Notes under the pieces: generated by a model
What the model was told of the DNA's origin: nothing
The model's database searches: none
Seen by the model: the letters and a program-made list of their open reading frames with translations, nothing else
Translations under genes and position numbers: made by a program
Shown: positions 3,928 through 40,249 of the stretch, piece after piece
Layout of the letters: every line of letters starts with the position of its first letter
How positions within the stretch are numbered: position 1 is the first letter of the stretch
NCBI RefSeq assembly: GCF_001975225.1
Contig: NZ_CP019445.1
Location: 620,001-684,000 of the forward strand
DNA: 64,000 nucleotides
From: Kosakonia cowanii JCM 10956 = DSM 18146
GTDB lineage: Bacteria > Pseudomonadota > Gammaproteobacteria > Enterobacterales > Enterobacteriaceae
Direction of reading: 5' to 3'

Positions 3928-3954
3928 ACGGAAGGGGATGCGGAAACGTGTTGG

Positions 3955-4566: not shown

Positions 4567-4811
4567 CGTTGCTCCTGTAGAGAGAGAATGGCGCTGAGCG
4601 TTGACTGCGCGTTGCGCCCTTATTTGAGGATGGTTCGGACACATCGTGTTGCAAAGTCGCCACGGCTTAATAAGAGGATGGAAAATCCTAAAAAACGCGG
4701 CTTTCAGAGCAATCGCTTAACGAAACGGGCGGTATGCACAGCCGCAGGCTGCCAGAGCGGCGGCAGATGCCCTACACTTCAAGCGTCTCCCTCAACATAA
4801 AGGAATCCGTG

Positions 4812-5831: not shown

Positions 5832-5910
5832 GCCGTTTAGCCCGGTGAGCGTCAATGCCGCCGGGCAGGTTTAACGCCGGACGGCACGTTGTTGAGCGTG
5901 CGGGTTAAAT

Positions 5911-6030
5911 GCCGGATGGCGCGTAAACGCTTATCCGGCCTACGCGGTTTCAGCCAGCCGCATAATCACATGCCGTTTGAGCAGGGCGCACAATCACGTA
6001 GGCCGGATAAGGCGAAGCCGCCATCCGGCA
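5911..6030. repeat. BIME: two REP units after ahr
   Basis: A forward unit (GCCGGATGGCGCGTAAACGC and following CTTATCCGGCCTAC) and an inverted unit (GTAGGCCGGATAAGGCGAAG and following CCGCCATCCGGCA) lie between convergent ahr and the dihydroxyacetone kinase gene. A separate perfect 10-bp hairpin (GTGCCCGGTG/CACCGGGCAC) follows at 6034-6056, without a T tract. Confidence 0.85.
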
Positions 6031-6062
6031 ACTGTGCCCGGTGAACCACCGGGCACCTCTTC

Positions 6063-7700
6063 CTATTTCCCTATCGCGGCAAACACTTCGGCAATCGCTA
6101 CTGCGCCGGGATCGGTCACGCCCTCAAGGTTCTCACTGTTGACGTAAGATGAACGCCCCGCGCCCGCTTTCTGCATGGTGGCGGTGCTCTCTGCCCCTTT
6201 CTGCGCGGCATCGATGGCAGCGGCTAATCCGCGATCGCGCAGGGCTTCCAGCGCCGGTTGTAGCGCATCGATCAGCGTGCGGTCGCCGAGATCCGCCCCG
6301 CCATAGTGTTTCATCTGCTTTAACCCCAGCAGCAGCGCGTCGGGCAACGGCGTGGCGTTATGCACCGCCTGGCCTGCGGCGGTAAAGAAGATCGACATCA
6401 GCACGCCGCTGGAGCCACCCATCACCGTCGCCAGCCGCTCGCCAATCAGTTGCAGCAGCTGCGCGGTGTTGTTCAGCGGCAGCGCGTTCTGCTCCAGCAG
6501 GCGCTTGATCTCGCGCGCACCTTCGGCAAAGGTCGAGCCGGTATCACCATCGCCCACTTTCGCATCCAGCGCGTTGAGGCGGTTTTCCAGGTCGATGAGC
6601 GTCTGCGCAGCAGTGCCGACCAGCGCTTTTACCTGCGGGTTATCGGAAGGCTCAATCTCCAGCCCGGTGTAAACGGCTTTGTGCGGCTGGGTTTTCATCG
6701 GCGCGAAGGCGACCGGTTTCTGCCAGCCAACGGTCTGCACCTCGGCGCAGAGCGCCTGCTCAAACTCATCCGTTAAGCGCAGCAGCGAAAGGGAGAAGCC
6801 TTTCATATCGAGCGAACTGACCAGCGGCGCGGGGCCAATCAGGTAGGCCAGTTGATCTTTCAGCGCCGAATGGGCCAGCTCTTTGGTCAGCAGCGCCATC
6901 TCCAGCGCGGAGACGCCGCCGAGGTTGTTAATCAGCACCGCCACACGATCGTTACCCACCGCCGCGCGCAGCGGTTCGACCAGCGTATCGATCAGCGATT
7001 TGCTGTTATGGGTCTCAAGGGTACTCGCGCCCGGCTCTCCGTGAATGCCGAGGCCAAGCTCAACGTGGCCCTGCTGAATGCGCCCCTCTTCGCTGTCGCT
7101 GCCCGGCAGGTTGCAGCTCTCCATCGCCAGACCGAGGCTGTAGACGTTGTCGCAGGCCTGCTGAGCGAGGTCGCGCACTTCGCTCAGGGATTTGCCCTGC
7201 TCTGCGGCGTAACCGGCAATTTTGTGCACCAGCGCCGTGCCGGCGATGCCGCGCGGCTGTTTGTTATCAGGCAGCGCGATGTCGTCGGCGACAATCACCA
7301 TCTCCACTTTCAGGCCGTAGCGCTTGGCTTTTTCCGCCGCGAGGCCGAAGTTGAGCCGGTCACCGGTGTAGTTTTTGACAATCAGCAGGCAGCCGCGATC
7401 GCCGGTCACTGCCACAATGGCGTTCAGCACCGCGTCTACGCTCGGTGAAGCAAAGAGATCGCCGCAGACGGCGGCGGTGAGCATGCCTTTGCCGACAAAC
7501 CCGGCGTGGGCCGGTTCATGGCCGGAGCCGCCGCCGGAGATAACCGCTACGCGGCTTTTATCCCAGTCGGCGCGGGCGACGATGCGGATCGCCGGATCGC
7601 TCTCAAGGCGTACAAGGTTGCCATGCGGGGCGGAGATCACCAGCCCTTCGATGGCGTCGTTGACCAGCTGTTTGCGGTCGTTGAAAAAGAATCTGGACAT
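6063..7700 (-). CDS. ATP-dependent dihydroxyacetone kinase, single-chain DhaK-DhaL
   Basis: A 545-residue one-chain kinase phosphorylating dihydroxyacetone (and usually glyceraldehyde) with ATP, as in the Citrobacter freundii enzyme, not the three-part PTS-dependent DhaKLM enzyme. The N-terminal K domain shows GGGSGHEPAHAGFVG and the substrate-binding histidine in LGLGIHGEPG; the C-terminal L domain shows DGDTGSTFAEGA and GGSSGVLMS, the Mg-ATP site. The start at 7700 gives the family N-terminus (MSRFFFND) and follows a GGAAG ribosome site; the open frame extends a further 21 codons upstream without support. A small membrane-protein gene lies 86 bases upstream on the same strand. No glycerol dehydrogenase or DhaR regulator is nearby, so its substrate supply is not evident. 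Confidence 0.9.
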   Translation of the reverse strand: MSRFFFNDRKQLVNDAIEGLVISAPHGNLVRLESDPAIRIVARADWDKSRVAVISGGGSGHEPAHAGFVGKGMLTAAVCGDLFASPSVDAVLNAIVAVTGDRGCLLIVKNYTGDRLNFGLAAEKAKRYGLKVEMVIVADDIALPDNKQPRGIAGTALVHKIAGYAAEQGKSLSEVRDLAQQACDNVYSLGLAMESCNLPGSDSEEGRIQQGHVELGLGIHGEPGASTLETHNSKSLIDTLVEPLRAAVGNDRVAVLINNLGGVSALEMALLTKELAHSALKDQLAYLIGPAPLVSSLDMKGFSLSLLRLTDEFEQALCAEVQTVGWQKPVAFAPMKTQPHKAVYTGLEIEPSDNPQVKALVGTAAQTLIDLENRLNALDAKVGDGDTGSTFAEGAREIKRLLEQNALPLNNTAQLLQLIGERLATVMGGSSGVLMSIFFTAAGQAVHNATPLPDALLLGLKQMKHYGGADLGDRTLIDALQPALEALRDRGLAAAIDAAQKGAESTATMQKAGAGRSSYVNSENLEGVTDPGAVAIAEVFAAIGK

Positions 7701-10513: not shown

Positions 10514-10780
10514 TTTAATTACGCCCGTAAAAACCAGTCTTTTTCCTGGAAAATCGCTTGTTTCATGGCTTAAACGTCATTTATTCTCTTGAGTCGTCGA
10601 AATGATCGCTAAGATTAATATACTCAGCGGATACGTGCGTGAGACCCGATTCTGACGTGCCGAAACCGCAGTAACGTTAAGATTAACACGAAGTCACCGC
10701 AACAGCGGACCTGAGTTACGAAAGCTTGCAATTCTATCCGTAGCCGCCGCCGTTGTCTTTAAGATTCAGGAGCGTAGTGC

Positions 10781-12292
10781 ATGGAGTTCAGTGTAAAAAG
10801 CGGTAGCCCGGAGAAACAGCGGAGTGCCTGCATCGTTGTTGGCGTCTTTGAACCGCGCCGGCTCTCTCCGATTGCCGAGCAGCTGGATAAAATCAGCGAC
10901 GGTTATATCAGTGCGCTGCTGCGTCGCGGCGAACTGGAAGGCAAGCCGGGTCAAACCCTGCTGCTGCACCATGTGCCAAATGTGCTTTCCGAACGTATTT
11001 TGCTGATTGGTTGCGGAAAAGAGCGTGAATTGGATGAGCGTCAGTACAAGCAGGTCATTCAGAAAACGATAAATACGCTGAATGATACCGGCTCGATGGA
11101 AGCGGTCTGCTTCCTGACCGAACTGCACGTTAAAGGGCGCAACACCTACTGGAAAGTGCGCCAGGCCGTTGAGACGGCGAAAGAGACGCTCTACAGCTTC
11201 GATCAGCTGAAGACCACCAAAAGCGAGCCGCGTCGCCCGCTGCGTAAAATGGTCTTCAACGTGCCGACCCGTCGCGAGCTGACCAGCGGCGAGCGCGCGA
11301 TCCAGCATGGTCTGGCGATCTCCGCCGGTATCAAAGCGGCGAAAGATCTTGGCAATATGCCGCCAAATATCTGTAACCCGGCCTATCTCGCCTCCCACGC
11401 GCGCCAGCTGGCGGACTCCTACAGCAAAAACGTCACCACCCGCGTGATTGGCGAACAGCAGATGCGCGAGCTGGGCATGTGCTCCTATCTCGCCGTCGGC
11501 CAGGGTTCGCAGAACGAATCACTGATGTCGGTGATTGAGTACAAAGGCAACCCGTCTGAAGACGCGCGCCCGATTGTGCTGGTCGGCAAAGGGCTGACCT
11601 TTGACTCCGGCGGTATCTCGCTCAAGCCTGGCGAAGGCATGGATGAGATGAAGTACGACATGTGCGGCGCGGCGGCAGTGTATGGCGTGATGCGCATGGT
11701 TGCTGAACTGCAACTGCCGATCAACGTCACCGGCGTGCTAGCGGGCTGTGAAAACATGCCTGGCGGACGCGCGTACCGCCCGGGCGACGTGCTCACCACC
11801 ATGTCCGGTCAGACGGTTGAAGTGCTGAACACCGACGCTGAAGGCCGCCTGGTGCTGTGCGATGTGCTGACTTACGTTGAGCGTTTCGAGCCGGAAGCGG
11901 TGATCGACGTGGCGACGTTAACCGGTGCCTGCGTGATTGCGCTGGGCCACCACATTACCGGCCTGCTGTCGAACCACAATCCGCTGGCCCATGAGCTGAT
12001 TGGTGCCTCCGAGCAGGCGGGCGATCGCGCATGGCGTCTGCCGATGAGCGATGAGTATCAGGAGCAGTTAGAGTCCAATTTTGCGGATATGGCGAATATC
12101 GGTGGCCGTCCTGGTGGTGCAATCACCGCAGGCTGCTTCCTCGCGCGCTTTACCCGCAAGTACAATTGGGCGCACCTGGATATCGCCGGCACCGCGTGGC
12201 GTTCCGGTAAAGCGAAAGGCGCCACCGGGCGTCCGGTCGCCATGCTGTCGCAGTTCCTGCTCAATCGCGCCGGGTTTAACGGCGAAGAGTAA
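10781..12292 (+). CDS. pepA: Leucyl aminopeptidase A (PepA/XerB/CarP)
   Basis: A 503-residue M17 family cytosol aminopeptidase, the same length as E. coli PepA. The C-terminal catalytic domain shows [18 protein letters not shown] and [10 protein letters not shown], which supply the two-metal ligands and catalytic residues. In E. coli PepA also binds DNA as an accessory factor in XerCD recombination at cer and in pyrimidine control of carAB, so its closeness to pyrBI is suggestive but is the ordinary conserved gene order. The start follows TTCAGGAGCG. Divergent from lptF, followed by a REP unit. Confidence 0.96.
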
Positions 12293-17806: not shown

Positions 17807-18628
17807 TCACTGCTCTTCCGACGCCAGCACCAGCCGTACAATCGCGGCGGCTTTCTGCGGCGGTAGCGCCAGTACATCACCCCAAAGCTGTTGCAGCATA
17901 TCGCAGACCAGCTTCTCTTTGCCGATGGCATTTTGCGGCGCATCCAGCAGTTGCAGATCCTGACCATACTTCTGCGCCATCGGCTGTACCACAATCGCGA
18001 CATCCCGCTGCGCATTGGCCCGCTCTTCGGCTGTCACCGTGTGTTTATTGGGCCCGTAAGAGGCGTTGAGCATGGCGGCTTCAGTGTCGAGGCGGCGTTT
18101 TAACATCTCCGGGGAGATAAAGCGCACCGGGTTAATGCCCCCTTTTACCGCCGGGTATTGAAAGCGGAAGCAGGCATCATCGCTCTTGGCCTGAATTTCG
18201 GCGGCCTGCTCCATCATCACGCGCATTTCGGCGACCACCAGGTCGTCCGGCGCAAACTGCAAACGCTGCATCTGCACCGCGAGGATTTGCGGCTGAATGG
18301 CGTCGATCACCTTCTGCTCATTCGCCCCCTCTTTCATCATCACCATCACCTGGGCGCGCAGTTTCGCCATCAGGGTGGGATCGTGTTCGGCGATAAATTT
18401 CCACGCCGGGACCTGCTGCACCGTCGCGTCAAACTTCTCATCCGCGGTCTGGGCTAACTTCTCTCCCTGCAAATATTTAATGTCGATCACGTTCCACAGG
18501 GCGATAAATACCACCACCAGCACGATCGCGCTTCCTTTGCTCAGCCACCCTTTTTTACGCAGCAGGCTGGCGACCACGGCGATCGCCATCCCGGCGTAGC
18601 CCGCCATCAGGATATGTGTCCAGTTCAT
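17807..18628 (-). CDS. Membrane-anchored protein of unknown function
   Basis: I do not recognise this 273-residue protein. Two hydrophobic segments (about 6-22 and 33-48, separated by a basic turn RKKGWLSKG) are followed by a soluble, mainly helical and charged domain of about 220 residues with many Met and Gln. The likely topology is two helices with a soluble C-terminal domain. A KEKLVCDMLQQLWGDVLALP stretch lies near the C-terminus. It replaces yjgL of E. coli at this spot and ends 28 bases beyond the convergent yjgM stop. It is the gene after miaE on the minus strand (20-base gap), so it may be cotranscribed with miaE. Confidence 0.7.
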   Translation of the reverse strand: MNWTHILMAGYAGMAIAVVASLLRKKGWLSKGSAIVLVVVFIALWNVIDIKYLQGEKLAQTADEKFDATVQQVPAWKFIAEHDPTLMAKLRAQVMVMMKEGANEQKVIDAIQPQILAVQMQRLQFAPDDLVVAEMRVMMEQAAEIQAKSDDACFRFQYPAVKGGINPVRFISPEMLKRRLDTEAAMLNASYGPNKHTVTAEERANAQRDVAIVVQPMAQKYGQDLQLLDAPQNAIGKEKLVCDMLQQLWGDVLALPPQKAAAIVRLVLASEEQ

Positions 18629-18648
18629 TATTTTCCTTTGATCTCAAA

Positions 18649-19407
18649 TCAGGCCGGTACGCCGCTGTGAAAACGGAACTCCGTATCCGGTGAGCTAATC
18701 AGCGCCGCTTCCACTTCGCCGAAATGGCGCACGCGCGGCGCAATATCGGTGGCCGAAATCTGCTGCGCCAGCGCGAGGTAATCCTGGTAGTGGCGCGCTT
18801 CGGATCGCAGGAGCGACAGGTAAAATTTTTGCAAATCCGCGTCAAGACACGGCGCAAGTGCGGCGAAGCGTTCGCAGGAGCGCGCTTCGATATAGGCACC
18901 GCAAATTAATTTATCGACCAGAGTCAGCGGTTCATGAGTGCGAACTTCTTTCAGCATCCCTTTGGCATAACGGCTGGCGGTAATTTTGACATAGGGAATA
19001 TTGCGGGCGAGCATCGCTTCGCGCACCTGCCAGAAGTGGTGCAGCTCCTCTTTGATCAGCAGCACCATGCTGTCGATCAGCGCCTGGCCCCAGGCATCAT
19101 CGGTCTGTGGCATCACGCTTTTGCCGATCTGCTTATGCAGGGCGACAAAGTCCGGTTCCGGGCCTTCGCGGAAGGTAAATGCTTCATAGGGCGTCAGCCA
19201 GGCCAGCAGCGCTTCTGAGCCGGTTTTATCGGCAACATAGCGGCGCACCAGCAGCATGGCGGTTTGGGCGGCCTTCAGTTCGCAAACCAGATGATCGGTG
19301 AGCAGCAGCGGCAGCATCTCGGGCTGACGGGCTTTTTCTATCCAGGCGGTGGGGGTTGGGCAGTGCAGAAAAGCGCGAACCGGGGCGAGTAGTTGCGGGT
19401 AATCCAT
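18649..19407 (-). CDS. miaE: tRNA ms2io6A37 hydroxylase MiaE
   Basis: A 252-residue ferritin-like diiron monooxygenase that hydroxylates ms2i6A at position 37 of tRNAs reading U-initial codons, as in Salmonella; E. coli K-12 lacks it. Iron ligands are visible as the paired ExxH motifs EELHHFWQV and SEARHYQDY, with further glutamates in LVCELKAAQ and YIEARSCERF. The start at 19407 follows an AAGGAA ribosome site; the 13 extra codons upstream are unsupported. Somewhat shorter than the ~270-residue Salmonella protein. It lies between rraB and the unknown membrane-anchored gene, the same strand order as in Salmonella relatives. Confidence 0.9.
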   Translation of the reverse strand: MDYPQLLAPVRAFLHCPTPTAWIEKARQPEMLPLLLTDHLVCELKAAQTAMLLVRRYVADKTGSEALLAWLTPYEAFTFREGPEPDFVALHKQIGKSVMPQTDDAWGQALIDSMVLLIKEELHHFWQVREAMLARNIPYVKITASRYAKGMLKEVRTHEPLTLVDKLICGAYIEARSCERFAALAPCLDADLQKFYLSLLRSEARHYQDYLALAQQISATDIAPRVRHFGEVEAALISSPDTEFRFHSGVPA

Positions 19408-31289: not shown

Positions 31290-31574
31290 TTACAGGCGGT
31301 GATTAGCGCTGTGGTAAGCCGCCTCTTTTTCACGTTTACCAATCGCCACGACAAACACCGTCACCACGTTGTCTCTGACCTGGTAAATCAACCGATAGCC
31401 CGAGGCGCGAAGCTTTATCTTGTAGCAATCCGGCAAGCCGTGCAGCCGGGCTTTTTCCACTCTCGGCTGAACCAGCACCTCTGCGAGCTTCTTTTTAAAC
31501 TGCGCCTGAACCGTCACGCCCAGTTTTTTCCACTCTTTCAATGCGCGCGGATCAAACGCCAGCTCATAGATCAT
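31290..31574 (-). CDS. relE: RelE-family toxin
   Basis: A 94-residue RelE/ParE-superfamily protein beginning MIYELAFDPRALKEWKKL, with the central HGLPDCYKIKLRASGYRLIY and C-terminal VVAIGKREKEAAY, which give the basic and aromatic residues (R, K, Y) used by RelE to cut mRNA in the ribosomal A site. The start lies inside the last codons of the antitoxin gene (11-base overlap), the classic coupling. Complete and apparently intact. The symbol reflects family, not proven orthology with the K-12 relE. Confidence 0.87.
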   Translation of the reverse strand: MIYELAFDPRALKEWKKLGVTVQAQFKKKLAEVLVQPRVEKARLHGLPDCYKIKLRASGYRLIYQVRDNVVTVFVVAIGKREKEAAYHSANHRL

Positions 31575-31806
31575 CCAGCCTGACCTTGATCCCTTTTTGC
31601 GGGTTCGCCAGGCGCTCTCTGACCACCTCCAGCAGCGCCGCTTCGTCTTCGCTCACCGTTACGGTTTTAACCGGCATGCGGCCATTCTCGGCAACGTATT
31701 GAAACAGCAGGCGCACCGCTTCGGTGGGCGTGATGTCGAGTTTCTCCAGCACTTTCCAGGCCTCCTCTTTGAGCTTGTCATCCAGTCGAACATTGAGCGT
31801 TGCCAT
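31564..31806 (-). CDS. relB: RelB-family antitoxin
   Basis: An 80-residue RelB/DinJ antitoxin. The N-terminus MATLNVRLDDKLKEEAWKVL is the ribbon-helix-helix DNA-binding part, followed by the dimerisation helix (TPTEAVRLLFQYVAENGRMP), and the C-terminal half should wrap the toxin. The start at 31806 follows GGAGGCATA. Two further inverted half-sites just upstream fit an autoregulatory operator. The pair sits between nrdG and the regulator of the DUF43xx cassette. Confidence 0.87.
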   Translation of the reverse strand: MATLNVRLDDKLKEEAWKVLEKLDITPTEAVRLLFQYVAENGRMPVKTVTVSEDEAALLEVVRERLANPQKGIKVRLDDL

Positions 31807-31831
31807 TATGCCTCCGGGCAGGTGGGAATGT

Positions 31832-31862
31832 GTAATGCAATATAGCATTACATTGGCATTAC
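31832..31862 (-). promoter_or_regulatory. Probable relBE operator
   Basis: Inverted half-sites GTAATGC (31832-31838) and GCATTAC (31845-31851), plus a third copy GCATTAC (31856-31862) spaced 11 bases on, lie 26 bases upstream of relB. This fits binding by ribbon-helix-helix dimers on one DNA face. Confidence 0.7.
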
Positions 31863-31884: not shown

Positions 31885-33795
31885 TCAAAACCGGCTTACG
31901 CAGGCCATCGCCACGCGTTGAAAGGTGTCGAAATCGGCGCAGGCGCAGAGCCTGGCGGTGGCGCGTTCGCGCAGGAAGGTGACAAAAATATCGTAGATTG
32001 CCATCGCTTCTTCATACTCACTTTTGCTGATCGCCAGTAAAAAGATGACGTGCGCCGTCTCCTCGCCCCAGGCGATGCCCTGCGGGGCCAGCACGGTGTA
32101 AACCACGGTTTTCTTTGCCAGCAGGCCAAGGGCGTGCGGCAGCGCGATGCCTTCACCGAGCAGGGTGCTGACAATCGCTTCGCGCTCCACCACCGAATCG
32201 AGGAACTCGCCATCGACAAACCCCTCCTGCTGTAGCTCGGCGCAGAGGGTGCGGAACAGGGTTTGCTGATCCATCGCCTCATCGATAATGCGAAAGTGGG
32301 CGGCGTCGAAATATTTCTTCAGCATCCACGGGCGGGTGCGATCCACCAGCACCAGTTTGCCAATCTGCTCCAGCTGGTAGTCGCTGGGGAACGGCGCGAT
32401 GGTCACCACCGGTTTATCTTTTTCGCTGATGCGTGCGGTAGAGATAACAAAATCTTCCGCCAGCGTGTCGCACTGCTCGTAGTCGCGCAGCGTCACGGTG
32501 CGGGTAATGACGATTTGCGGATATTTGCGCGCCAGCACCGCTTCAATCATCCGCACCATCGCATTCCCGGCATCGCACACCAGCAGCACGCGCGGCTGGC
32601 GCTGGTAGCCAACGTTGTAGTGCCGCTCCAGCCCGACACCGATATGCAGCACCAGAAAACCGATCTCATTTTCGCTGATGGTATAGGGCGTATATTTCCC
32701 CCAGCTCGACACCGCCGCCAGCGTCATATCCCACGCCATCGGGTAGTGCTGTTTAATGTTATCCAGCAAGGGGTTAGGGATCATGATCTGGTAGCGCACG
32801 CGGGTGATCATGGTTTTGATATGGGTCAGCAGGTCGGCATGCAGCTGCGCATCGCCCTGCAGGTTGTAGTTATAGTGGGTATTGATATAGCCGAGGATGT
32901 AGTTCACCAGCGTTTCGTCATCATCAGCACTGATGGCGCTGGGCGCCGGATCCTGCACCCGCCGGGCGGCGATATGCACCCGCAGCCAGTGCTCTTCCGC
33001 CTCTGCCAGCGGTTTGCCCGCCAGCTGCTGCAACGCACTGGCAATATCCCGCGCGGCGTGGTGCACCTGCTCGTCGCCATCGTCGGCGGTGAACTCCGAG
33101 AGCGGAAACCCTTCGCTGATGCGCCGCACGGCAACGGCGCAGTAGAGCTGAATAAAGCGATCGCCCTCATCGGTAAGGCGAATATGGTAGCGGCTGAAGC
33201 AGTCGTGCAGAAACGGCGCCAGCGCCTCGGGCACGCCCGCGTTAAGCGCATCTTCGGTAATCAGCGGGTTATGAGCGTTGTGCTGCGCCAGTTCCCACAG
33301 CAGATCGGTGAGGCAGGCGCGCAGCGCCATCTCGCTGCCGAAGAGCTTCATGCCGTGGCGCGGCCGGGTCTCCAGCGTCAGGCGGTAGCGGGAGAACCAC
33401 TCGCGCACCTCGGTCATATCGTTTTGCAGCGTGGCGCGGCTGACAAACCACTCGTCAGCCAGATCCTCCAGCTTGAGGGAGAAGGCCGAGGTGAGAAAGC
33501 GCACCACCAGATAGTGCACCCGCTCCGGCCCGGTGCGCGGAATGCGCAGCGCGCGCGGGCGGGTGGCTTGCAGCGCGTGATAAAGCGCGGCATCGAGCAC
33601 CTTCAACTGATAACCGCTGCCGCGGCTCAAAATAAACTGCGCGCCGTGGTTCTCCAGCAACGCATTGAGCGCAGTGATATCAGCGCGAACGGTACGCGTG
33701 GAGACCGACAGCCGCTGCGCCAGCTCATCCTGCGGCAGCGTCTCGTTCTGCAGCAGGGTGAAGAGTTGCGCTAAACGTTGGTTCGGAAATCGCAC
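31885..33795 (-). CDS. BglG/LicR-type transcription activator with PRD, EIIB and EIIA domains
   Basis: A 636-residue multidomain regulator. Two N-terminal HTH modules (about 5-45, SVSTRTVRADITALNALL; and 108-135, ADEWFVSRATLQNDM) bind DNA. Two PTS regulation domains span about 165-275 and 290-395, with candidate phospho-histidines H319 and H384. A GatB-like EIIB domain starts at 401 with Cys407 (VLLVCDAGNAM), and a mannitol/fructose-type EIIA domain carries His554 (GIALPHAL). Its activity should thus respond to PTS phosphorylation. It is the last gene on the minus strand, 83 bases after the DgaF-like aldolase, and is the likely regulator of the cassette. It is not the sigma-54-dependent LevR-type regulator of the Salmonella dga operon. 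Confidence 0.85.
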   Translation of the reverse strand: MRFPNQRLAQLFTLLQNETLPQDELAQRLSVSTRTVRADITALNALLENHGAQFILSRGSGYQLKVLDAALYHALQATRPRALRIPRTGPERVHYLVVRFLTSAFSLKLEDLADEWFVSRATLQNDMTEVREWFSRYRLTLETRPRHGMKLFGSEMALRACLTDLLWELAQHNAHNPLITEDALNAGVPEALAPFLHDCFSRYHIRLTDEGDRFIQLYCAVAVRRISEGFPLSEFTADDGDEQVHHAARDIASALQQLAGKPLAEAEEHWLRVHIAARRVQDPAPSAISADDDETLVNYILGYINTHYNYNLQGDAQLHADLLTHIKTMITRVRYQIMIPNPLLDNIKQHYPMAWDMTLAAVSSWGKYTPYTISENEIGFLVLHIGVGLERHYNVGYQRQPRVLLVCDAGNAMVRMIEAVLARKYPQIVITRTVTLRDYEQCDTLAEDFVISTARISEKDKPVVTIAPFPSDYQLEQIGKLVLVDRTRPWMLKKYFDAAHFRIIDEAMDQQTLFRTLCAELQQEGFVDGEFLDSVVEREAIVSTLLGEGIALPHALGLLAKKTVVYTVLAPQGIAWGEETAHVIFLLAISKSEYEEAMAIYDIFVTFLRERATARLCACADFDTFQRVAMACVSRF

Positions 33796-33878
33796 GTCGT
33801 TACCTCATGGTTAAAAGTGGCGTAAGGGGTTGAAGCCTATGCAGATAATCAAAGCGCAGCCGCCATCCGGCGATGGCC

Positions 33879-34616
33879 TTACACCAGCGCTTTAGTCATC
33901 ATAAGCAGCTGGCGGACATCCGCCGGGCGGGTCTCGCCACTCACCTTATCAATAATTGAACTATAAATGTGCGGAATGATTTTGCTGACGCCCGCCGCCA
34001 GCGCGATCTCGACGATCTCGCTGAAATTCTCCAGATCGATGCCGCCGGTCGGTTCCAGCCAGAAGTCGTGTCGCGCGCAGGCTTCGGCAACGGCTTTGTA
34101 CTCCTCGCGGCATTGCAGCCCGCCCATCGGGAAATATTTGATTGAGCTGCCGCCCATATCTTTCAGCAAAGCAATCGCCGTCTCCACCGGCACAATCGCG
34201 TCGGCGGCCTGGCTGCTAAGCGGCCCGGTGGAGATTTTCACCTGCCCTGGCGTGCCGGTGGGCGAGACCAGACCGTTAACCACCGTCTCGTTCTGCCCGA
34301 GCAGCGCGCGGCTAGTGCCCACGCCGGTAAAGACCTGGTTCACATGCTGCGGCTGCACTTCGCGGGAGATGGCGCTGACCATCGCCGACTGGTTCGGATC
34401 GCCAGCACCAAGGCCGACGGAGAGCGCGTTATCAATCCTCAGCGCATACTGGCGCATATCGGCCACCGCTGAGTCGATATCCGGGTAGTTTTTTGACAGC
34501 ACGCCGACCAGCACATGCCCTTCCGCCGCTTCATAGATGGCGCTGGCGTTATCAATACTGCCTGCCAGCACGTTCAGGCAGACGCGGTCGTGGTAAAAGT
34601 TGGGGGTCAGTTTCAT
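33879..34616 (-). CDS. dgaF: DgaF-like 2-keto-3-deoxy-6-phosphogluconate aldolase (EF_0839 family)
   Basis: A 245-residue class I aldolase-type protein. In the Salmonella glucosaminate pathway DgaF splits KDG-6-phosphate into pyruvate and glyceraldehyde-3-phosphate. The likely Schiff-base lysine is K160 in SSIKYFPMGG, the position used by KDPG aldolases, with a phosphate-binding PTGGIDLENF segment downstream. The ATG overlaps the dgaE stop by four bases (ATGA), so the two enzymes are coupled. The substrate is inferred from family; stereochemistry cannot be read. Confidence 0.83.
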   Translation of the reverse strand: MKLTPNFYHDRVCLNVLAGSIDNASAIYEAAEGHVLVGVLSKNYPDIDSAVADMRQYALRIDNALSVGLGAGDPNQSAMVSAISREVQPQHVNQVFTGVGTSRALLGQNETVVNGLVSPTGTPGQVKISTGPLSSQAADAIVPVETAIALLKDMGGSSIKYFPMGGLQCREEYKAVAEACARHDFWLEPTGGIDLENFSEIVEIALAAGVSKIIPHIYSSIIDKVSGETRPADVRQLLMMTKALV

Positions 34617-35731
34617 GGGCGTGGCTCCTTATTCAGTTCCTCGGCGATGCGTTGCGCGATGATGGTCAGTTGCTCGGCGCTGACGCTGCGCACATCGGCT
34701 TCGATAATCCCTTCATTGGCTTTGTAGCCGCGAAAATAGATGGCGTACTCCCCCTGCTTGAGGGCCTCGACCAGTTCGCCGGTGGCGATGCCGGTGATGG
34801 CTTCGTCAAATTTGATTTCACTGCGGGCAATGTCGCGCCCGGCGCTGTCCCACACCACGCGGGCGCTGACGCCATTGAGGCTATTGAGCTGCTCAATAAA
34901 GGGGGTCATTTTGGCGACCATCTCCGCCCCGCTCTCCTTTTTCGCGCTGAGATAGTGCTCAATGGCACAGGTGAGGCCAAGAATGCCCTCTTTGCCCACC
35001 TTCATAGCGCGGCCAATACCCGCCGTCTGGCGTTTCACCCACTCGACATACTGCGTTTTGCCAATCACCAGCCCGCTGGTTGGTCCTTCAATCGCTTTCG
35101 CGCCGCTGTAGATCACCAGATCCGCCCCGGCGCGGTAGTAGCACTGCAGATCCTCTTCGGCAGCGGCATCGACAATCAGCGGCAGGTTATGTTTACGTGC
35201 TACCACGGCGGCCTGCTCAACGCTGAGCATGCTCTTCTGCACACAGTGGTGGGACTTGATAAAGAGGATCGCCGCAGTGCGTGGGGAGATCGCCGCTGCC
35301 AGCTGATCGGCGGAGCATTCGTTGGCGTAACCGGCTTCAACCACTTTGCCGCCGCCAAGCGCCACCATCGTGCCGACCGGTGCGCCGTAGTTCACGTTGT
35401 GCCCGCGCGGCAGCACGATCTCACTGTTTTCGATCTTTGTGCTGTGCAGGTTCTCCAGCAGCCAGTCGCTCTCTTTCACCAGCACGGCGGCCACGGCTTG
35501 CGCCAGCCCGGCCGAGGCGCAGGAGACGACGGTCGCGCCTTCCACATCCAGCAGCTTCGCAATGTAGTCGCCGGTTTTATTCACCAGGTCTTTCATTTCA
35601 AAGTAGTGGTTCATGCCCTGCAACGCCGCCTCAACCACTTCCGGGCGCGGGGTCGAGACGCCGAGCGCCGTCATGCGCCCGGAGGCGTTAATCACCTGTT
35701 TTAACTGGTACTTCTCATAAATCGAAGACAT
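34613..35731 (-). CDS. dgaE: DgaE-like PLP-dependent ammonia lyase
   Basis: A 372-residue fold-type I PLP enzyme of the SelA-like branch. The PLP lysine is K212 in LVIYSGAKAIEGPTSG, and D188 (LIVDAAAEED) would contact the pyridine nitrogen. DgaE in Salmonella removes ammonia from D-glucosaminate-6-phosphate to give KDG-6-phosphate, the substrate of DgaF. It overlaps the upstream amidohydrolase by 17 bases and the downstream aldolase by four, an organisation that implies equal expression. The phosphorylated amino-acid substrate in this cassette is an inference from the family. Confidence 0.83.
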   Translation of the reverse strand: MSSIYEKYQLKQVINASGRMTALGVSTPRPEVVEAALQGMNHYFEMKDLVNKTGDYIAKLLDVEGATVVSCASAGLAQAVAAVLVKESDWLLENLHSTKIENSEIVLPRGHNVNYGAPVGTMVALGGGKVVEAGYANECSADQLAAAISPRTAAILFIKSHHCVQKSMLSVEQAAVVARKHNLPLIVDAAAEEDLQCYYRAGADLVIYSGAKAIEGPTSGLVIGKTQYVEWVKRQTAGIGRAMKVGKEGILGLTCAIEHYLSAKKESGAEMVAKMTPFIEQLNSLNGVSARVVWDSAGRDIARSEIKFDEAITGIATGELVEALKQGEYAIYFRGYKANEGIIEADVRSVSAEQLTIIAQRIAEELNKEPRP

Positions 35732-36848
35732 GCTCTGCCCTCCCTTGTTCGGTCAGATAGCCCCGGCCCGCGCGAATGGCGGCCAGCGGCGTAAGTAACT
35801 GGTCAGCCTGCAAGGCGCTGTTCTCTGCATCGGTGAACAGCACCGGCTGGCGGCGAAGATCGAAAATTGTCAGATCGGCATCAAAGCCCACGGCCAGCCG
35901 CCCCTTTTTCGCCAGGCGCAGGCCGTTGGCGGCGTGGTCGGTCACGCAGGCGATCACCTGCGGCAGCGAGAGGCCGATGGCGAGAAATTTGGACATCACG
36001 TTCGCCAGAGAGCGCACCGGGCCATCGATGCGGTTGCGGCAGTAGATATCGGAACTGATGGTATGCGGCAGAATGCCGAGGCCGATGGCCTGCTTCGCCA
36101 CCGCAAAGCTGAAGCTGGCGCTACCGTGGCCGACATCGAGGCGCACGCCGCGCGTAATGGCGCGGGTCACCGCAGCGCGCAGTTCGCCGCCCGGCGTCAG
36201 AATGCGGTTCGGCTTGCCGTTATAGCAGTGAGTGATGATGTCTCCGGCGCTCAGCAGGTCGGCAATCTCATCGAGGTTCGGTGGGTTATTGCCGATGTGC
36301 ACCATCAGCGGCAAATCGCCATTCTCCTGCTGCATCGCCTTCGCGCGCTCCAGCGGCGTGATGCCGTTGTCGCCAACCACGCTGCTGCTCATGCGTGCTT
36401 TCAGGCCAACAACAAAATCGGGGTGGCGCTGCACGGCGTCGCGCACGGCACGGGCGTCGATATTGTCGAGGTTCGCCAGCTCGTTCTGGGCAATCAGCCC
36501 GACGCGGGAGATATTGAGCAGGGCGTAAACGTCGGTCGTTGCCTGGCGGGTGATGGCGTAGAAGTCATCAATATCATCTGCGCCGGTGCTGCCGGCATCG
36601 ATAACCGTGGTGACGCCGGTTTCAATCCCGACGCTGTCCGGTTGGTCATAGTAAATTGGTGAGTTGGGGTAGCAGTGGACATGGGAGTCGATCCACCCGG
36701 CGCTGACATAGTGTTTGCCCGCCAGATCGACGGTTTTCACCGCCGGGCCGCTAATCTCGCCAAGTGCGGCGATTTTCCCGTCGCTGAGGGCAATATCCGT
36801 TACCGTATCGTCCACCAGACGCGCCCGGCGCAGGAGTAAATCAAACAT
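35715..36848 (-). CDS. Amidohydrolase/deacetylase family metalloenzyme (EF_0837 family)
   Basis: A 377-residue amidohydrolase-superfamily protein. Metal ligands are visible as H56 and H58 (DSHVHCYP), a lysine suited to carboxylation in VVGLKARMSSS, then MVHIGN, THCYNG and the terminal Asp in CVTDHAANG, the dihydroorotase-like set. It could remove an acyl group from an amino-sugar acid or open a lactam before DgaE acts; the reaction is unknown. The start at 36848 follows GGAGAGAGAT and gives the family N-terminus; 11 further codons upstream are unsupported. It lies between the membrane genes and the PLP enzyme. Confidence 0.82.
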   Translation of the reverse strand: MFDLLLRRARLVDDTVTDIALSDGKIAALGEISGPAVKTVDLAGKHYVSAGWIDSHVHCYPNSPIYYDQPDSVGIETGVTTVIDAGSTGADDIDDFYAITRQATTDVYALLNISRVGLIAQNELANLDNIDARAVRDAVQRHPDFVVGLKARMSSSVVGDNGITPLERAKAMQQENGDLPLMVHIGNNPPNLDEIADLLSAGDIITHCYNGKPNRILTPGGELRAAVTRAITRGVRLDVGHGSASFSFAVAKQAIGLGILPHTISSDIYCRNRIDGPVRSLANVMSKFLAIGLSLPQVIACVTDHAANGLRLAKKGRLAVGFDADLTIFDLRRQPVLFTDAENSALQADQLLTPLAAIRAGRGYLTEQGRAEHVFDL

Positions 36849-36890
36849 ATCTCTCTCCAGAAGTGACGGGTGCCGCAGCACCCGTATCGA

Positions 36891-37532
36891 TCAGAGTGCG
36901 ACCGGGAAGATCGCGCCCAGCAACATTGCGCCGAGGATAGCGCCGCCGGTAATCGGCTTTTGCCAGAGGTAAAAGAGCAGCGCGCCCACCAACGAGCCAA
37001 TGCCAATCGGAATCGAGGCGGTCATCGCGCTTAAGATAATCAGCGGGCCAAGAAAACGGCCGGAAGCGTTACCCGCGCCCATCATCACGTCTGCGCCGTA
37101 GGTGGAGTCGCTCTGATTAATGGTGAATTTACGCGCCAGAATGATCAGGTAACCAATCGCCAGGCCAATCACCAGCCCGGTGGCCAGCGAGGCAACAAAG
37201 TTGGCGACCGGGAAGACAAAGCCCGCGCCGAGCAGCAGCGCCGGGACGCCAAGACCAACGCCGGTCTGGATCGCGCCGCCGATATCGAGAATACCGACCA
37301 GCGACCCTTCGATAATGCGCGCAAACAGGAAGCTGGCACCGAAGGCGGCGACCGCGCCGTAAACGCCGGTGTCCATCCCCGCGCGCAGCATCGAGACAAA
37401 CGCCACTTCGTTAAACGCGCCGATGCCGTAGAGGTAGTACATGTGCGTTCCGGCAAAGACGCCGGAGGAGAGCAGGCCAACGAAGATCGGGAATGACCAG
37501 TCGGCGTACCAGAAGCCTTTATTCTCTTCCAT
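36891..37532 (-). CDS. DUF4310 membrane protein (EF_0832 family)
   Basis: A 213-residue hydrophobic protein of a family described only as part of this cassette. About six hydrophobic segments rich in Gly and Ala are visible (for example PIFVGLLSSGVFAGTHMYYL, GVPALLLGAGFVFPV, GAILGAMLLGAIFP), and the N-terminus is a short soluble leader, MEENKGFWYADW. It ends 42 bases before the amidohydrolase and starts nine bases after the DUF4311 stop. With DUF4311 it probably forms a membrane transporter or channel. It is not an EIIC, EIID or major-facilitator protein as far as I can see. Confidence 0.8.
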   Translation of the reverse strand: MEENKGFWYADWSFPIFVGLLSSGVFAGTHMYYLYGIGAFNEVAFVSMLRAGMDTGVYGAVAAFGASFLFARIIEGSLVGILDIGGAIQTGVGLGVPALLLGAGFVFPVANFVASLATGLVIGLAIGYLIILARKFTINQSDSTYGADVMMGAGNASGRFLGPLIILSAMTASIPIGIGSLVGALLFYLWQKPITGGAILGAMLLGAIFPVAL

Positions 37533-37541
37533 TGCAGATCC

Positions 37542-38318
37542 TTATTTGCCGCTCAGCGAGTTGTGGATGAGCTCCAGCCAGTTCGGCGCGCTCAGGTGGA
37601 ACGACTCAATCATTTTCAGATCGAAGCCGCGGAAGAAGGCGCTCAGCACAAACAGGGCGACAATGGCGCTCATCATCACTTTGGTGACGCGGTTCCAGCC
37701 GCTCTCTTCCACCCCTTTACCAATCAGGATGCCGAGCACCAGGCCCGGTACGGCGTTGCCCATAATCAGCTGCGCTGCGCCGCCGAACACCGTCGCCCAG
37801 AAGCCTGATTTTTTGCCCGCGTCGATCGCCGCCAGCCAGAAGATCACCGGCATGATGGTGTTGACCAGCAGGTTAGCGGCGGGTACCAGCACTTTCACGG
37901 CGGTGACTTGCAGCGCTGCCGGAACGGAGGAAGCCGTAAGGTTAAGGAAGGTGACGACTACCATGCCGATCACGCCACAGGCAATCGCCATCTTTTTCGG
38001 ATTGTGCAGGGTTTCGCCGACGTTGCGGTTTTTGACCATCAGCGCCGCCGCGCCCCAGTTCGGGATGATGCGGTGGTCAACGTCCTGGGTAAACGAACCC
38101 GCCGCTACCGACGAAGCCCAGGCGTTAAAGAAGAAGCCTAAACCAAAGGAGAAGTGCGAAGCCGGATCTCCTTCGCAGGAGTTCAGCTCGCCCAGTGTAC
38201 GAAATGCGCCCATTCCCTGAGTGGTTGGCGCGTGAAACATGCGTGCAGCCCCGGCGCCCACACCGACGCCGACCAGGCCGCCGATAATGAGCGATTTTAT
38301 TAGTATGAGTAAGAACAT
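37542..38318 (-). CDS. DUF4311 membrane protein (EF_0833 family)
   Basis: A 258-residue polytopic protein of the cassette-specific DUF4311 family. It opens with a helix (LLILIKSLIIGGLVGVGVGA), then a conserved polar stretch containing TLGELNSCEGDPASHFSFGL and DVDHRIIPNWGAAAL, and about five further helices. The polar His/Asp/Glu-rich loop is the most distinctive part and could line a substrate path. The gene is nine bases from DUF4310. The function is not established. Confidence 0.8.
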   Translation of the reverse strand: MFLLILIKSLIIGGLVGVGVGAGAARMFHAPTTQGMGAFRTLGELNSCEGDPASHFSFGLGFFFNAWASSVAAGSFTQDVDHRIIPNWGAAALMVKNRNVGETLHNPKKMAIACGVIGMVVVTFLNLTASSVPAALQVTAVKVLVPAANLLVNTIMPVIFWLAAIDAGKKSGFWATVFGGAAQLIMGNAVPGLVLGILIGKGVEESGWNRVTKVMMSAIVALFVLSAFFRGFDLKMIESFHLSAPNWLELIHNSLSGK

Positions 38319-38369
38319 CAGTCTGCCCTCTTCTACCCTGCCAGCAACGCCTGCGGGGTATGCGGTAAG

Positions 38370-38666
38370 TTAGTGCGTGACGAACTCCACCTTATCGAGA
38401 TTGATGGCGGTCACGTTGACGGTCACGTCCAGCTCCACACTGTACGAGCGTCTTTCCCGACGCAGAAAGAGGAACAGAAAGGCCTCTTTGCGCGTCGTTT
38501 CCTGCGCCTGAACGACCTGCACATCCTGTGGCTCAATACGCAGTAAAATGTGCGGCGACGCCTTCATCACCGCGGCCTGAACATGGTTCAGCGCGTCAGC
38601 AAAGGCGCGCGTTTTGGCGTCGCCCTTGCCCTTCACCCTGACCGTGGTGGTGAACTGTTCTTTCAT
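38370..38666 (-). CDS. DUF4312 cassette protein (EF_0831 family)
   Basis: A 98-residue soluble protein of the DUF4312 family. It has no signal peptide, no cysteine and one internal histidine (SPHILLRI); a basic RRERRS patch follows a FLFLFL stretch. The start at 38666 lies two bases after the SFCGS gene stop; the nine codons upstream in frame overlap that gene without a ribosome site. By size and position it could be a cytoplasmic accessory subunit of the DUF4310/4311 membrane pair. The role is unknown. Confidence 0.8.
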   Translation of the reverse strand: MKEQFTTTVRVKGKGDAKTRAFADALNHVQAAVMKASPHILLRIEPQDVQVVQAQETTRKEAFLFLFLRRERRSYSVELDVTVNVTAINLDKVEFVTH

Positions 38667-38668
38667 GG

Positions 38669-39031
38669 TTATGCGCCGTGTTTTTTCTGCCACGCCTGCA
38701 CCAGGCGCTCGCCTAACTCTTCTTTATCCATAAAGCCGAAACCGAGCACTTTGCACCCTTCGTTGATGGCGGTGACGCCCTCGTCGATGGAGCGCATGCC
38801 GTGTTTCGCTTTATAGCCATATTTGTTCTGCGCGGTGATGGCGCCTGCGCCGCCGCTGCCGCAGAAAGAGATGCCGAAGGTGGCGTTTTCTGCGTTCATC
38901 ACATCGCCGAGTTTCATATCCGCCGCCACGCCCGGTACCACTACCGCGCGCCCGCCCGCTTTCTCCACGCCTGCCGCAACTTTCTGCCCTTTGCCCAGCC
39001 GGTCGCCAATCACTACGGTAATCTGTTCCAT
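38669..39031 (-). CDS. SFCGS-family glycine-rich protein (EF_0830 family)
   Basis: A 120-residue soluble protein named after its SFCGSGGAGAITAQNKYGYK segment (about 67-86), with an N-terminal nucleotide-binding-like strand-loop, VVIGDRLGKGQKVA. The invariant-looking cysteine beside a glycine-rich loop recalls PTS EIIB or phosphosugar-binding sites, but this is inference. It loosely resembles the DUF2620/YhfU type. The start at 39031 follows AAGGAGCAAACC, 10 bases after the PRD gene stop; the 49 extra codons upstream overlap the PRD gene and are rejected. Confidence 0.8.
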   Translation of the reverse strand: MEQITVVIGDRLGKGQKVAAGVEKAGGRAVVVPGVAADMKLGDVMNAENATFGISFCGSGGAGAITAQNKYGYKAKHGMRSIDEGVTAINEGCKVLGFGFMDKEELGERLVQAWQKKHGA

Positions 39032-39041
39032 GGTTTGCTCC

Positions 39042-39362
39042 TTAAAGGTTCTCTTTTGCCACTTCGAAGTGCACTGACAGCAGCCAGGCCTCTTCTTCCG
39101 GGAGATTGCCAAACGCCGCCACCACGTCGTGGGCGAGGCGCATCGATTCAGGCGAGATCTCATCAAACAGGCTGGCATCCACTTCCGGCAGCGGCTCGCC
39201 GGTCACCGACCGGTGCGCCATCGCGCGAAGATGGGAGGTCAGCATCTGCTGCTGCACCGCATTCGGCGTGATGTTCTGCGCATGAAGCAAGGTGTAGACC
39301 TGCGACAGCATGCGCTCCGCCAGGGTTGCCGTTTGCGCCGCCTGCATGGTCGCATCGTTCAT
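39042..39362 (-). CDS. Small PRD-domain protein (EF_0829 family)
   Basis: A 106-residue protein consisting of a single PTS-regulation-domain-like helical bundle with histidines in TSHLRAMAHRS, RLAHDV and SVHFEVAK. Such a stand-alone PRD could be a phosphorylation-responsive partner or anti-activator of the large PRD regulator at the other end of the cassette. The ATG at 39362 was chosen because GGAG lies seven bases upstream; a GTG at 39380 would add six codons. It is the first gene of the cassette, directly downstream of the palindrome and CRP-like site. Confidence 0.75.
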   Translation of the reverse strand: MNDATMQAAQTATLAERMLSQVYTLLHAQNITPNAVQQQMLTSHLRAMAHRSVTGEPLPEVDASLFDEISPESMRLAHDVVAAFGNLPEEEAWLLSVHFEVAKENL

Positions 39363-39448
39363 TACCGCTCCGTTATTCACTCGTCGTACCCCGTTGATGG
39401 CTCAGGAGTAAAGCTAACGGCGCGAAGGCAGAGTTTGTAGCGAGGAGT

Positions 39449-39468
39449 TTTCCACTTCGAAGTGGAAA
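39449..39468. promoter_or_regulatory. Perfect 20-bp palindrome, candidate cassette operator
   Basis: TTTCCACTTCGAAGTGGAAA lies 87 bases upstream of the first cassette gene. Its 12-bp core CACTTCGAAGTG recurs at 39060-39071, inside the end of that gene. It is a candidate binding site for the cassette regulator. Confidence 0.65.
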
Positions 39469-39479
39469 CCGGGAGGGCG

Positions 39480-39499
39480 TTAGTGATCTGCGCCACAAA
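39480..39499 (-). promoter_or_regulatory. CRP-like site upstream of the cassette
   Basis: On the minus strand TGTGG-CGCAGA-TCACT matches TGTGA-N6-TCACA at eight of ten core positions. It lies just upstream of the 20-bp palindrome, a layout expected for catabolite-activated sugar genes. Confidence 0.55.
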
Positions 39500-39500
39500 A

Positions 39501-40045
39501 AAAGCCTACAGAGGGATTTTTCACTGAACGGCGGTCACAACGTTGGGTAATGCGCGAGGGATTTGGCGCGCAATGGCGCAGAAAAAAAGGGGCAGCCAAG
39601 AGGAGAAAGTGTGAGGGGGATAAGGTTTACTTATTGGGGGGCTGCTGGGGTTACGGAACCGCTGAAACCGCGTAGGCCGGATAAGGCGGAGCCGCCATCC
39701 GGCAATGGGGTTTGCATGTGGCTTTGGTGGAATGGTTCCGTTCACCAGGCGCTGGAGAGTTTCATTAATCTCTTATGCGGTGAACGGGATAAGGGGAGCG
39801 GCCGCGCTCCCCTTATCAATCCCCGCGGCCCCGCGAGGAAATCGGTGCTGCGCACTGCGCTCACCTCCCGCGTGCCTGACTGCGGCCGGCTCGACTCGAC
39901 ATCCTGTCTCGGTTCGCCTCTGTCCGCCATCCATGGCGTCCAGACCTTGTCATTCACGCTCCGGTTCGCCGATTTCAGCGGGGACACAACCCCTCGCTAT
40001 TAGATTGAATGTAAAGGGAAAATATGTGTTGCTGAAGGAGTGCCT
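39501..40045. other. Long non-coding spacer with a REP unit and strong hairpin
   Basis: No supportable gene was found. A REP unit lies at 39672-39704 (GTAGGCCGGATAAGGCGGAG then CCGCCATCCGGCA). A perfect 12-bp stem with a GCCG loop (ATAAGGGGAGCG/CGCTCCCCTTAT) lies at 39789-39816 and is followed to about 40000 by GC-rich, low-coding-potential sequence. It could be a structured RNA or the scar of a lost element. Confidence 0.5.
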
Positions 40046-40183
40046 GATGGCGGCTTCGCCTTATCAGGCCTACGAAACCCATGTTGCTGAAACGGAGTAG
40101 GCCGGATAAGCGTGTAACGCGCCATCCGGCAATTGTGCCGCGGAGATAATGCCGGATGGCGGCTGCGCCTTATCCGGCCTACC
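40046..40183. repeat. BIME upstream of the cybC 3' end
   Basis: Three REP units in alternating orientation: CTGATGGCGGCTTCGCCTTA with CAGGCCTAC, GTAGGCCGGATAAGCGTGTA with CGCCATCCGGCA, and TGCCGGATGGCGGCTGCGCC with TTATCCGGCCTAC. Confidence 0.85.
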
Positions 40184-40210
40184 ACGGCACGTCACCTATG
40201 CCGGAAAACG

Positions 40211-40249
40211 GCATAAAAAAAGAGCCGCGACGGTGAGGTGGCGGCCCTT
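40211..40249 (-). terminator. cybC terminator
   Basis: On the minus strand a GGGCCGC...GCGGCTC hairpin is followed by a run of seven T, 17 bases beyond the cybC stop. Confidence 0.75.

Follow-up and report, generated by a model that had tools for sequence, protein, structure and literature searches.

How does an operon that appears equipped to break down a phosphorylated amino-sugar acid come by the phosphate, when no recognised Enzyme II set or kinase is encoded in it? The question arises from a nine-gene cassette of Kosakonia cowanii JCM 10956 = DSM 18146, located on the minus strand at positions 31885-39380 of the window, by which we mean the whole 64,000-nucleotide stretch analysed (positions 620,001 to 684,000 of contig NZ_CP019445.1). 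The cassette encodes, in this order, a small PRD protein, an SFCGS protein, DUF4312, DUF4311, DUF4310, an amidohydrolase, a DgaE-like pyridoxal phosphate (PLP) lyase, a DgaF-like aldolase and a PRD-containing regulator. A sequence-only reading had proposed a membrane carrier made of DUF4310 and DUF4311, deacylation of the imported compound and its degradation by DgaE and DgaF, and had pointed to the missing phosphorylation step; as a whole, this interpretation is partly supported. We suggest, tentatively, that the cassette is an inducible operon for the uptake and breakdown of an N-acyl-2-amino-2-deoxy-aldonic acid that is phosphorylated at entry by way of the phosphotransferase system (PTS), the most likely substrate being N-acetyl-D-glucosaminate or a close isomer.

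Conservation of the nine-gene cassette

The nine adjoining open reading frames (ORFs) follow the order previously read, with gaps or overlaps of 2-83 bases when likely start codons are used. Scans with NCBI and Pfam profiles bear out the family names (eight of the nine proteins exceed the cut-off of a named NCBI family model) as well as the overall composition: an enzyme of a deacylase family, a DgaE-type lyase and a DgaF-type aldolase, with DUF4310 and DUF4311 as the sole membrane proteins and no recognised Enzyme II set or kinase. Comparison with other genomes had been proposed as a check. A scan of genome contigs with the DUF4311 alignment gave 501 relatives, of which the best 80, by their titles mostly Enterobacteriaceae and hence close kin, were used; 80/80 loci carried the same nine genes, all on a single strand and without change of order, so the gene set is not due to chance. 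The best-matching locus fetched was from Kosakonia cowanii (DUF4311 at 99%). The set is also kept in Bartonella plasmids, in Enterococcus, with additions or rearrangement, and in a Listeria-type contig.

Of 398 genomes sampled from the whole phylum, 12 carry DUF4311; every one of these belongs to Enterobacteriaceae, and one is Kosakonia cowanii's own. None of 385 genomes of a class taken to be Alphaproteobacteria carries it. Among 149 sampled Enterobacteriaceae genomes 70 carry it, two of them not as intact copies: G842 has a weak partial match, and in G766, a genome listed as 49% complete, the gene at C1:4582193-4582808 contains stop codons. Further weak matches in Enterobacteriaceae (E about 1e-4) were dropped; the one inspected was a glycine-rich hydrophobic N-terminal stretch of what by eye resembles a J-domain protein. 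Protein searches yielded 1437 relatives of DUF4311, 1353 of DUF4310 and 896 of SFCGS (120 of each listed), and the sources among the matches listed include Vibrio, Aeromonas, Chromobacterium, Microvirga, Enterococcus, Listeria, Lactiplantibacillus and Bacillus. Viral contigs gave 279 pattern matches and no relatives. Eight records labelled as phage have a DUF4311 match and may represent host DNA: two are large contigs of bacterial origin, and the other six, which lack annotation, measure 1.5 to 81 kb. On the unannotated contigs OR850993, OR845273, OR848318 and OR846593, of 3.7 to 81 kb, the match is the DUF4311 of the bacterial cassette. The Aeromonas caviae KAM479 record lacks, at 10640-10860, a stretch reaching from within DUF4310 into DgaF and including the amidohydrolase and DgaE genes, leaving the DUF4310 N terminus in frame with DgaF; this is either a strain-specific deletion or an assembly artefact.

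The nine proteins differ in conservation. Compared with Bartonella, the Listeria-type contig and E. faecalis, in that order, the Kosakonia proteins show identities of 77, 72 and 75% for SFCGS, 71, 73 and 68% for DUF4311, 74, 72 and 71% for DUF4310, 69, 68 and 68% for DgaF (the last over 155 residues of a split gene), 61, 53 and 56% for DgaE, 55, 48 and 48% for the amidohydrolase, 51, 50 and 48% for DUF4312, 37, 37 and 39% for the small PRD protein and 51, 24 and 23% for the regulator. SFCGS, DUF4311 and DUF4310 (68-77%) thus outrank the deacylase and the lyase (48-61%), with DgaF close behind, and their leading position fits a single tight complex. In Enterococcus faecalis IDRL-9065 the DgaF homologue occupies two reading frames (18501-19240 of the record) and is left out of the gene table.

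Enzymes, carrier candidates and regulation

The amidohydrolase belongs to the EF_0837 family, which we take to be COG3964-like. Its solved relatives include 8wzy (696 bits) and 2ics (371 bits), and the metal-site pattern HxH...K...H...H...D can be traced by eye. The lyase aligns with Salmonella DgaE in keeping the PLP lysine, His162/His163 and the cluster Arg301/332/346. The same residues are kept in E. faecalis and the Listeria-type contig, and Bartonella has Ala at position 162. The presumed PLP lysine is residue 213 of the Salmonella chain used and Lys-217 in PMC9529869, where, in the part of the article available, the three arginines are placed around the phosphate by docking. The aldolase scores 393 bits on NF047796, the KDPG aldolase equivalog (cut-off 300), from which the product of the lyase should be 2-keto-3-deoxygluconate-6-phosphate (KDG-6-phosphate) or an epimer. 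The cassette holds the sole DgaE/DgaF pair of the Kosakonia genome; the one other match to the DgaE model, at 77 bits, is by eye SelA adjoining SelB.

DUF4311 has six hydropathy peaks and DUF4310 five. As the sole membrane proteins of the cassette they are taken, by elimination, to be the carrier, and together they probably form it. DUF4311 keeps His29, Cys48, His55 and His82 in 0.99-1.00 of 188 sequences; its structure model (pLDDT 70.5) gave no fold match and no usable fold. Neither candidate matches the SSS family, and no recognisable EIIA, EIIB or EIIC occurs among the transport genes.

SFCGS had been regarded as a soluble subunit, a description that can now be refined: fold searches with the predicted structure place it with RpiB/LacAB, the structural matches lying at 10-20% identity and including the RpiB-fold uronate isomerase 4u8f. 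Cys57 is present in 189/189 alignment rows and in 69/69 rows of a second alignment, and it aligns with Cys66 of E. coli RpiB (hhalign score 30.4, probability only 50%; 35.6% in another alignment). Like the RpiB/LacAB sugar-phosphate isomerases, SFCGS would combine this fold with the catalytic cysteine and the Gly-rich anion-hole loop, with Ser where RpiB has Thr. Unlike them, it has no conserved histidine (no column exceeds 54% His in the 189-row alignment), its C terminus is shorter, the chain stopping before the positions of the phosphate-binding Arg133 and Arg137, and its neighbours are constantly those of a membrane module. The roles of the ring-opening histidine and of the catalytic and phosphate-binding residues of RpiB follow the available part of PMC4783025. 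A by-eye replacement of the RpiB histidine by Asn was withdrawn, as two alignments disagree there. An EIIB identity was also tried and rejected: comparison with GatB, ManX and SrlE by hhalign yielded no match, and the structural search led to RpiB/LacAB. The 50 matches listed for each of the two fold searches included no EIIB family, a listing that leaves room for one.

The small PRD protein scores below the cut-off of the general Pfam PRD model (17.9 of 23), and its His50 and His104 occur in 74/74 aligned sequences. The large regulator, previously described as PRD-EIIB-EIIA, is extended by Pfam to HTH-Mga-PRD-EIIA_2; its EIIB part was recognised by eye, through the segment with the VLLVCDAGN motif (CDAGN), and not by a profile match. 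A perfect 20-bp palindrome upstream of the small PRD gene, absent from the sequence-only reading, is exact in 71 of 98 upstream regions and has at most three mismatches in 95 of the 98, a set that counts the Kosakonia locus twice (the window and its own copy). The three outliers are Bartonella with five mismatches and the outer arms TTTCCG...CGGAAA kept, E. faecalis with seven and the Listeria-type contig with eight. Shuffled controls (200 for each of four regions) gave best matches of 6 to 11 mismatches, mostly 8 or 9 and never under 6, so that E. faecalis and the Listeria-type contig, being within the shuffle range, have no recognisable palindrome. Their regulators are also the most diverged (23-24%), as would fit a palindrome that serves as the regulator's site. 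The loose form TTTCCRN8YGGAAA has two sites in the genome, one of them this palindrome, and the reversed control pattern has one. The palindrome is a probable operator of the cassette regulator. Thirteen bases of its core, CACTTCGAAGTGG, recur at 39059-39071 in the HFEV codons at the end of the small PRD gene, either by chance or as a second operator.

How the substrate may be phosphorylated

Variants of the cassette bear on both substrate and phosphate. An extra lactonase gene lies between DgaF and the regulator in 44 of the 80 cassettes; among the loci without it are the Kosakonia cassette and L002. The lactonase of K. pneumoniae, the one scanned, is PF10282. By a hydropathy rule, a signal-peptide-like N terminus is present in 45/45 lactonases examined (the 44 and that of the K. 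pneumoniae record), so these enzymes probably act outside the cytoplasm on an aldonolactone. Together with DgaE and DgaF, the lactonase favours an amino-aldonate as the substrate. On two near-identical Bartonella plasmids a 671-residue HPr-Enzyme I fusion is encoded 64 bases past the regulator. The two fusion proteins are identical at 669/671 residues and therefore count as one observation. No other PTS gene is annotated on the plasmid examined in full, and no kinase in the Bartonella cassettes. A PTS phosphoryl donor of the element's own next to the cassette, with no Enzyme II, suggests that something in the cassette takes phosphate. This fusion and the retained phosphate arginines of DgaE make the missing phosphorylation step a genuine puzzle, as had been noted. 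On the plasmid of Bartonella sp. HY761, 56 kb long and with type VI secretion genes, replication, toxin and partition genes stand beside the cassette twice, as an inverted pair (121-7085). The E. faecalis cassette also encodes an EIIC of the lactose/cellobiose family, at 393 bits against a cut-off of 236, a member of the MupG family, and a PfkB kinase. The named models closest to this kinase are those of 2-keto-3-deoxygluconate (KDG) kinases, none of whose cut-offs it reaches.

In the pathway we favour, the secreted lactonase, where present, would open an aldonolactone ahead of uptake. The membrane carrier would consist of DUF4310 and DUF4311, joined by DUF4312 and the RpiB-fold SFCGS as its cytoplasmic subunits, and the substrate would be phosphorylated at C6 on or just after entry, paid for by the PTS phosphoryl chain. 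The amidohydrolase may then take off the acyl group, as its family suggests; by the established chemistry of their families, the DgaE-like lyase would produce KDG-6-phosphate and DgaF would cleave it to pyruvate and glyceraldehyde-3-phosphate. Sensing of the PTS phosphorylation state and action at the palindrome would fall to the PRD-EIIB-EIIA regulator, perhaps together with the small PRD protein. Support for this scheme comes from the gene set fixed in 80/80 loci, Bartonella, Enterococcus and the Listeria-type contig, and from the high conservation of DUF4310, DUF4311 and SFCGS, as expected of one complex. The Bartonella fusion favours PTS coupling of something in the cassette. Further support is provided by the phosphate arginines, PLP lysine and His163 kept in DgaE, DgaF above its equivalog cut-off, the invariant His50/His104 of the small PRD protein and Cys57 of SFCGS, the lactonase in 44/80 cassettes, the conserved palindrome and the sole DgaE/DgaF pair.

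A number of observations weigh against this scheme. The fold of SFCGS is an isomerase fold. No Pfam match to an Enzyme II was obtained at E up to 1 for DUF4310, DUF4311, DUF4312 or SFCGS, and hhalign found no relation between these four proteins and the components tried, a panel of single sequences (E. coli ManX/Y/Z, SrlA/E/B, UlaA, GatA/B and the E. faecalis EIIC). The lyase, with 604 bits on the broader TIGR01437 (cut-off 385.3), has 379.3 bits on the DgaE equivalog with its cut-off of 600, and Arg226, near the carboxylate in Salmonella DgaE, is Lys in Kosakonia. The phosphate arginines are also found in the distant 8t7j; they are thus weak evidence for a phosphorylated substrate and may mark the fold. 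The PRD regulator may be the only protein that the Bartonella fusion serves. The Kosakonia genome encodes KdgK outside the cassette (528 bits, cut-off 400), making phosphorylation after deamination possible, and the PfkB and EIIC of the E. faecalis cassette suit a route via an unphosphorylated acid. These E. faecalis extras may let a disaccharide enter by another route; once cleaved, it would release an acid without phosphate, for which the kinase is needed. The lyase and the deacylase may then tolerate unphosphorylated substrates. Finally, genes for lytic polysaccharide monooxygenases (LPMO) occur in 15 of the 70 cassette-bearing Enterobacteriaceae genomes and in 13 of the 79 others (Fisher p 0.53), a sample that includes tiny genomes and counts both non-intact DUF4311 copies among the 70. 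With LPMO genes thus failing to follow the cassette, a substrate derived from oxidised chitin finds no support within Enterobacteriaceae; the Kosakonia genome itself has one LPMO gene. In the accessible portion of an Aeromonas chitin-use paper (PMC11653859), homologues of OngB/OngC are only distant or absent in two Aeromonas strains.

The main rival dispenses with phosphorylation at uptake: DUF4310/4311 would be an ordinary ion-coupled or facilitating carrier, the acid would enter unphosphorylated and be deacetylated and deaminated to KDG, a KDG kinase from elsewhere would feed DgaF, and the PTS parts would be regulatory only. The marine ong pathway runs in this way, with OngIT, OngB, OngC and KdgK, as far as the part of PMC9537276 consulted describes it. 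The KdgK in trans, the KDG-kinase-like PfkB of E. faecalis and the four central proteins devoid of Enzyme II domains all agree with such a route, but the arginines of the DgaE phosphate site are kept, the Bartonella cassettes have no annotated kinase and yet carry the fusion, and the E. faecalis kinase has no match in any other compared locus, some of these being only 3.6 kb long. We regard this route as possible, though less probable than entry with phosphorylation. If SFCGS instead catalyses the isomerisation or C2-epimerisation of an acyclic sugar acid, the operon would be one for a rarer epimer (for example of the mannosaminate or galactosaminate type) that is epimerised before DgaE. Its fold, catalytic cysteine and Gly-rich loop with Ser for Thr, the uronate isomerase 4u8f among the fold matches and the missing conserved ring-opening histidine, as an acyclic substrate would permit, are compatible with this role; we nevertheless consider it unlikely, as SFCGS accompanies the membrane proteins in every locus compared and is equally conserved, unlike a free enzyme, and the two phosphate arginines of RpiB sit in the C-terminal part that it lacks.

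Somewhat less likely again is that the names DgaE and DgaF mislead and that the substrate, rather than an amino-sugar acid, is an acyl, carbamoyl or ester derivative of a different 2-amino-3-hydroxy acid. COG3964 enzymes studied elsewhere hydrolyse acetyl-(R)-mandelate, which counts for this alternative together with the lyase score under the DgaE equivalog cut-off and the lack of LPMO association; the aldolase, however, exceeds its own equivalog cut-off (393 against 300), and the lactonase in 44/80 cassettes points to aldonic acids. Within phosphorylation at entry, a more specific proposal is that the small PRD protein, SFCGS, DUF4312, DUF4311 and DUF4310 constitute a PTS permease that works by group translocation and belongs to a class without kinship to any known Enzyme II, in which the stand-alone PRD histidine protein would replace EIIA, and an RpiB-fold protein derived from sugar-phosphate isomerases, holding the phosphate on Cys57 in the anion-hole loop, would replace EIIB. 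This full assignment we hold to be quite improbable.

Genomic setting and known systems

Features of the cassette in window coordinates, with scores against the family models and cut-offs in parentheses
Feature	Position	Strand	Evidence and remarks
Small stand-alone PRD protein, EF_0829 family	39042..39380	-	TIGR03582, 140.7 bits (69.35); start GTG as listed, ATG at 39362 possible
SFCGS protein, EF_0830	38669..39031	-	224 bits (141.1); predicted RpiB/LacAB fold, invariant Cys57
DUF4312, EF_0831, small soluble protein	38370..38666	-	TIGR03578, 137.2 bits (89.65)
DUF4311, EF_0832, membrane protein, probable carrier subunit	37542..38318	-	TIGR03580, 513.1 bits (301.1)
DUF4310, EF_0833, membrane protein, probable carrier subunit	36891..37532	-	TIGR03579, 391.1 bits (215.45)
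Amidohydrolase/deacetylase, EF_0837 family	35715..36848	-	TIGR03583, 564.8 bits (432.15)
DgaE-family PLP ammonia lyase	34613..35731	-	TIGR01437, 604 bits (385.3)
DgaF-family KDG-6-phosphate aldolase, EF_0839	33879..34616	-	TIGR03581, 408.7 bits (222.4)
HTH-Mga-PRD-(EIIB)-EIIA regulator	31885..33795	-	Pfam: HTH_11, Mga, two PRD stretches, PTS_EIIA_2
Perfect 20-bp palindrome TTTCCACTTCGAAGTGGAAA, probable operator	39449..39468	not applicable	Upstream of the small PRD gene

For the amidohydrolase, the probable start is 36848 and not 36881, where the listed ORF begins. The cassette is flanked on one side by nrdD/nrdG and a RelB/ParE-type pair and on the other by cybC/pmbA, the nrd and cybC/pmbA neighbours being named by eye and by comparison with a K. 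pneumoniae record. The RelB-type antitoxin and ParE-type toxin, identified by Pfam, lie between nrdG and the regulator gene at 31290-31848; the K. pneumoniae record has an annotated RelB/DinJ and RelE/ParE pair at the same place. Several palindromic repeats of the GCCGGAT...ATCCGGC type, REP/BIME-like by eye, occupy the spacer 5' of the cassette at 39490-40230. No Rfam match was found, and a scan for promoters and terminators scored no better than shuffled sequence.

Both the catalogued families and amino-sugar-acid catabolism by DgaE/DgaF are already known. We found in the open literature no functional study of DUF4310/4311/4312/SFCGS, of EF0829-EF0839 or of their TIGR numbers, and no description of a carrier, PTS-linked or otherwise unknown, with an RpiB-fold subunit; EF_0839 or EF_0838 appear in screens, judging from the available parts of PMC2912369 and PMC11135667. 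The cassette is widespread in Enterobacteriaceae, Firmicutes and Bartonella, and its family models assign no function. If the favoured reading is true, these bacteria possess a pathway devoted to N-acetylated amino sugars in oxidised form, and a class of carriers is defined that perhaps couples to the PTS in the absence of all known Enzymes II. Given the fold of SFCGS and the Bartonella fusion, the DUF set now yields testable claims on the protein that takes the phosphate, the residue involved and the substrate.

The closest parallel in enzymology is the Salmonella Dga pathway for D-glucosaminate, in which a DgaE-type PLP ammonia lyase with the same phosphate-site arginines and a DgaF-type aldolase likewise share one operon. 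Salmonella Dga has a mannose-family PTS (DgaABCD) and a sigma-54 activator, and in the canonical Dga operon the mannose-family EIIA/B/C/D genes stand beside dgaE and dgaF. Profile scans detected neither a mannose-family PTS domain nor a sigma-54 activator among the nine Kosakonia genes, which instead include a deacylase, a PRD regulator and the DUF4310-4312/SFCGS set. With the marine ong pathway for N-acetylglucosaminic acid (GlcNAc1A) the proposed pathway would share deacetylation followed by deamination of an N-acetyl amino-aldonate towards KDG-6-phosphate (PMC9537276, in part). In that pathway OngB is aminoacylase-like, of subtype V (Cys/His/His), and OngIT is a symporter of the SSS family, according to the available parts of PMC12017989 and PMC9537276; the Kosakonia deacylase is instead of the EF_0837 family, and neither an SSS symporter nor a kinase is encoded among the nine genes, KdgK being present in trans only. 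The closest match as a gene set is with the EF_0829-EF_0839 families (TIGR03577-TIGR03583), seven of which are matched here, all over their cut-offs. The earlier statement that these families lack an assigned function holds: the EF_0829-EF_0833-type models are labelled hypothetical equivalogs, so the four central families and the small PRD protein are catalogued without function. To this catalogue the present analysis adds the predicted fold of SFCGS, the palindrome, the lactonase and the Bartonella HPr-Enzyme I fusion.

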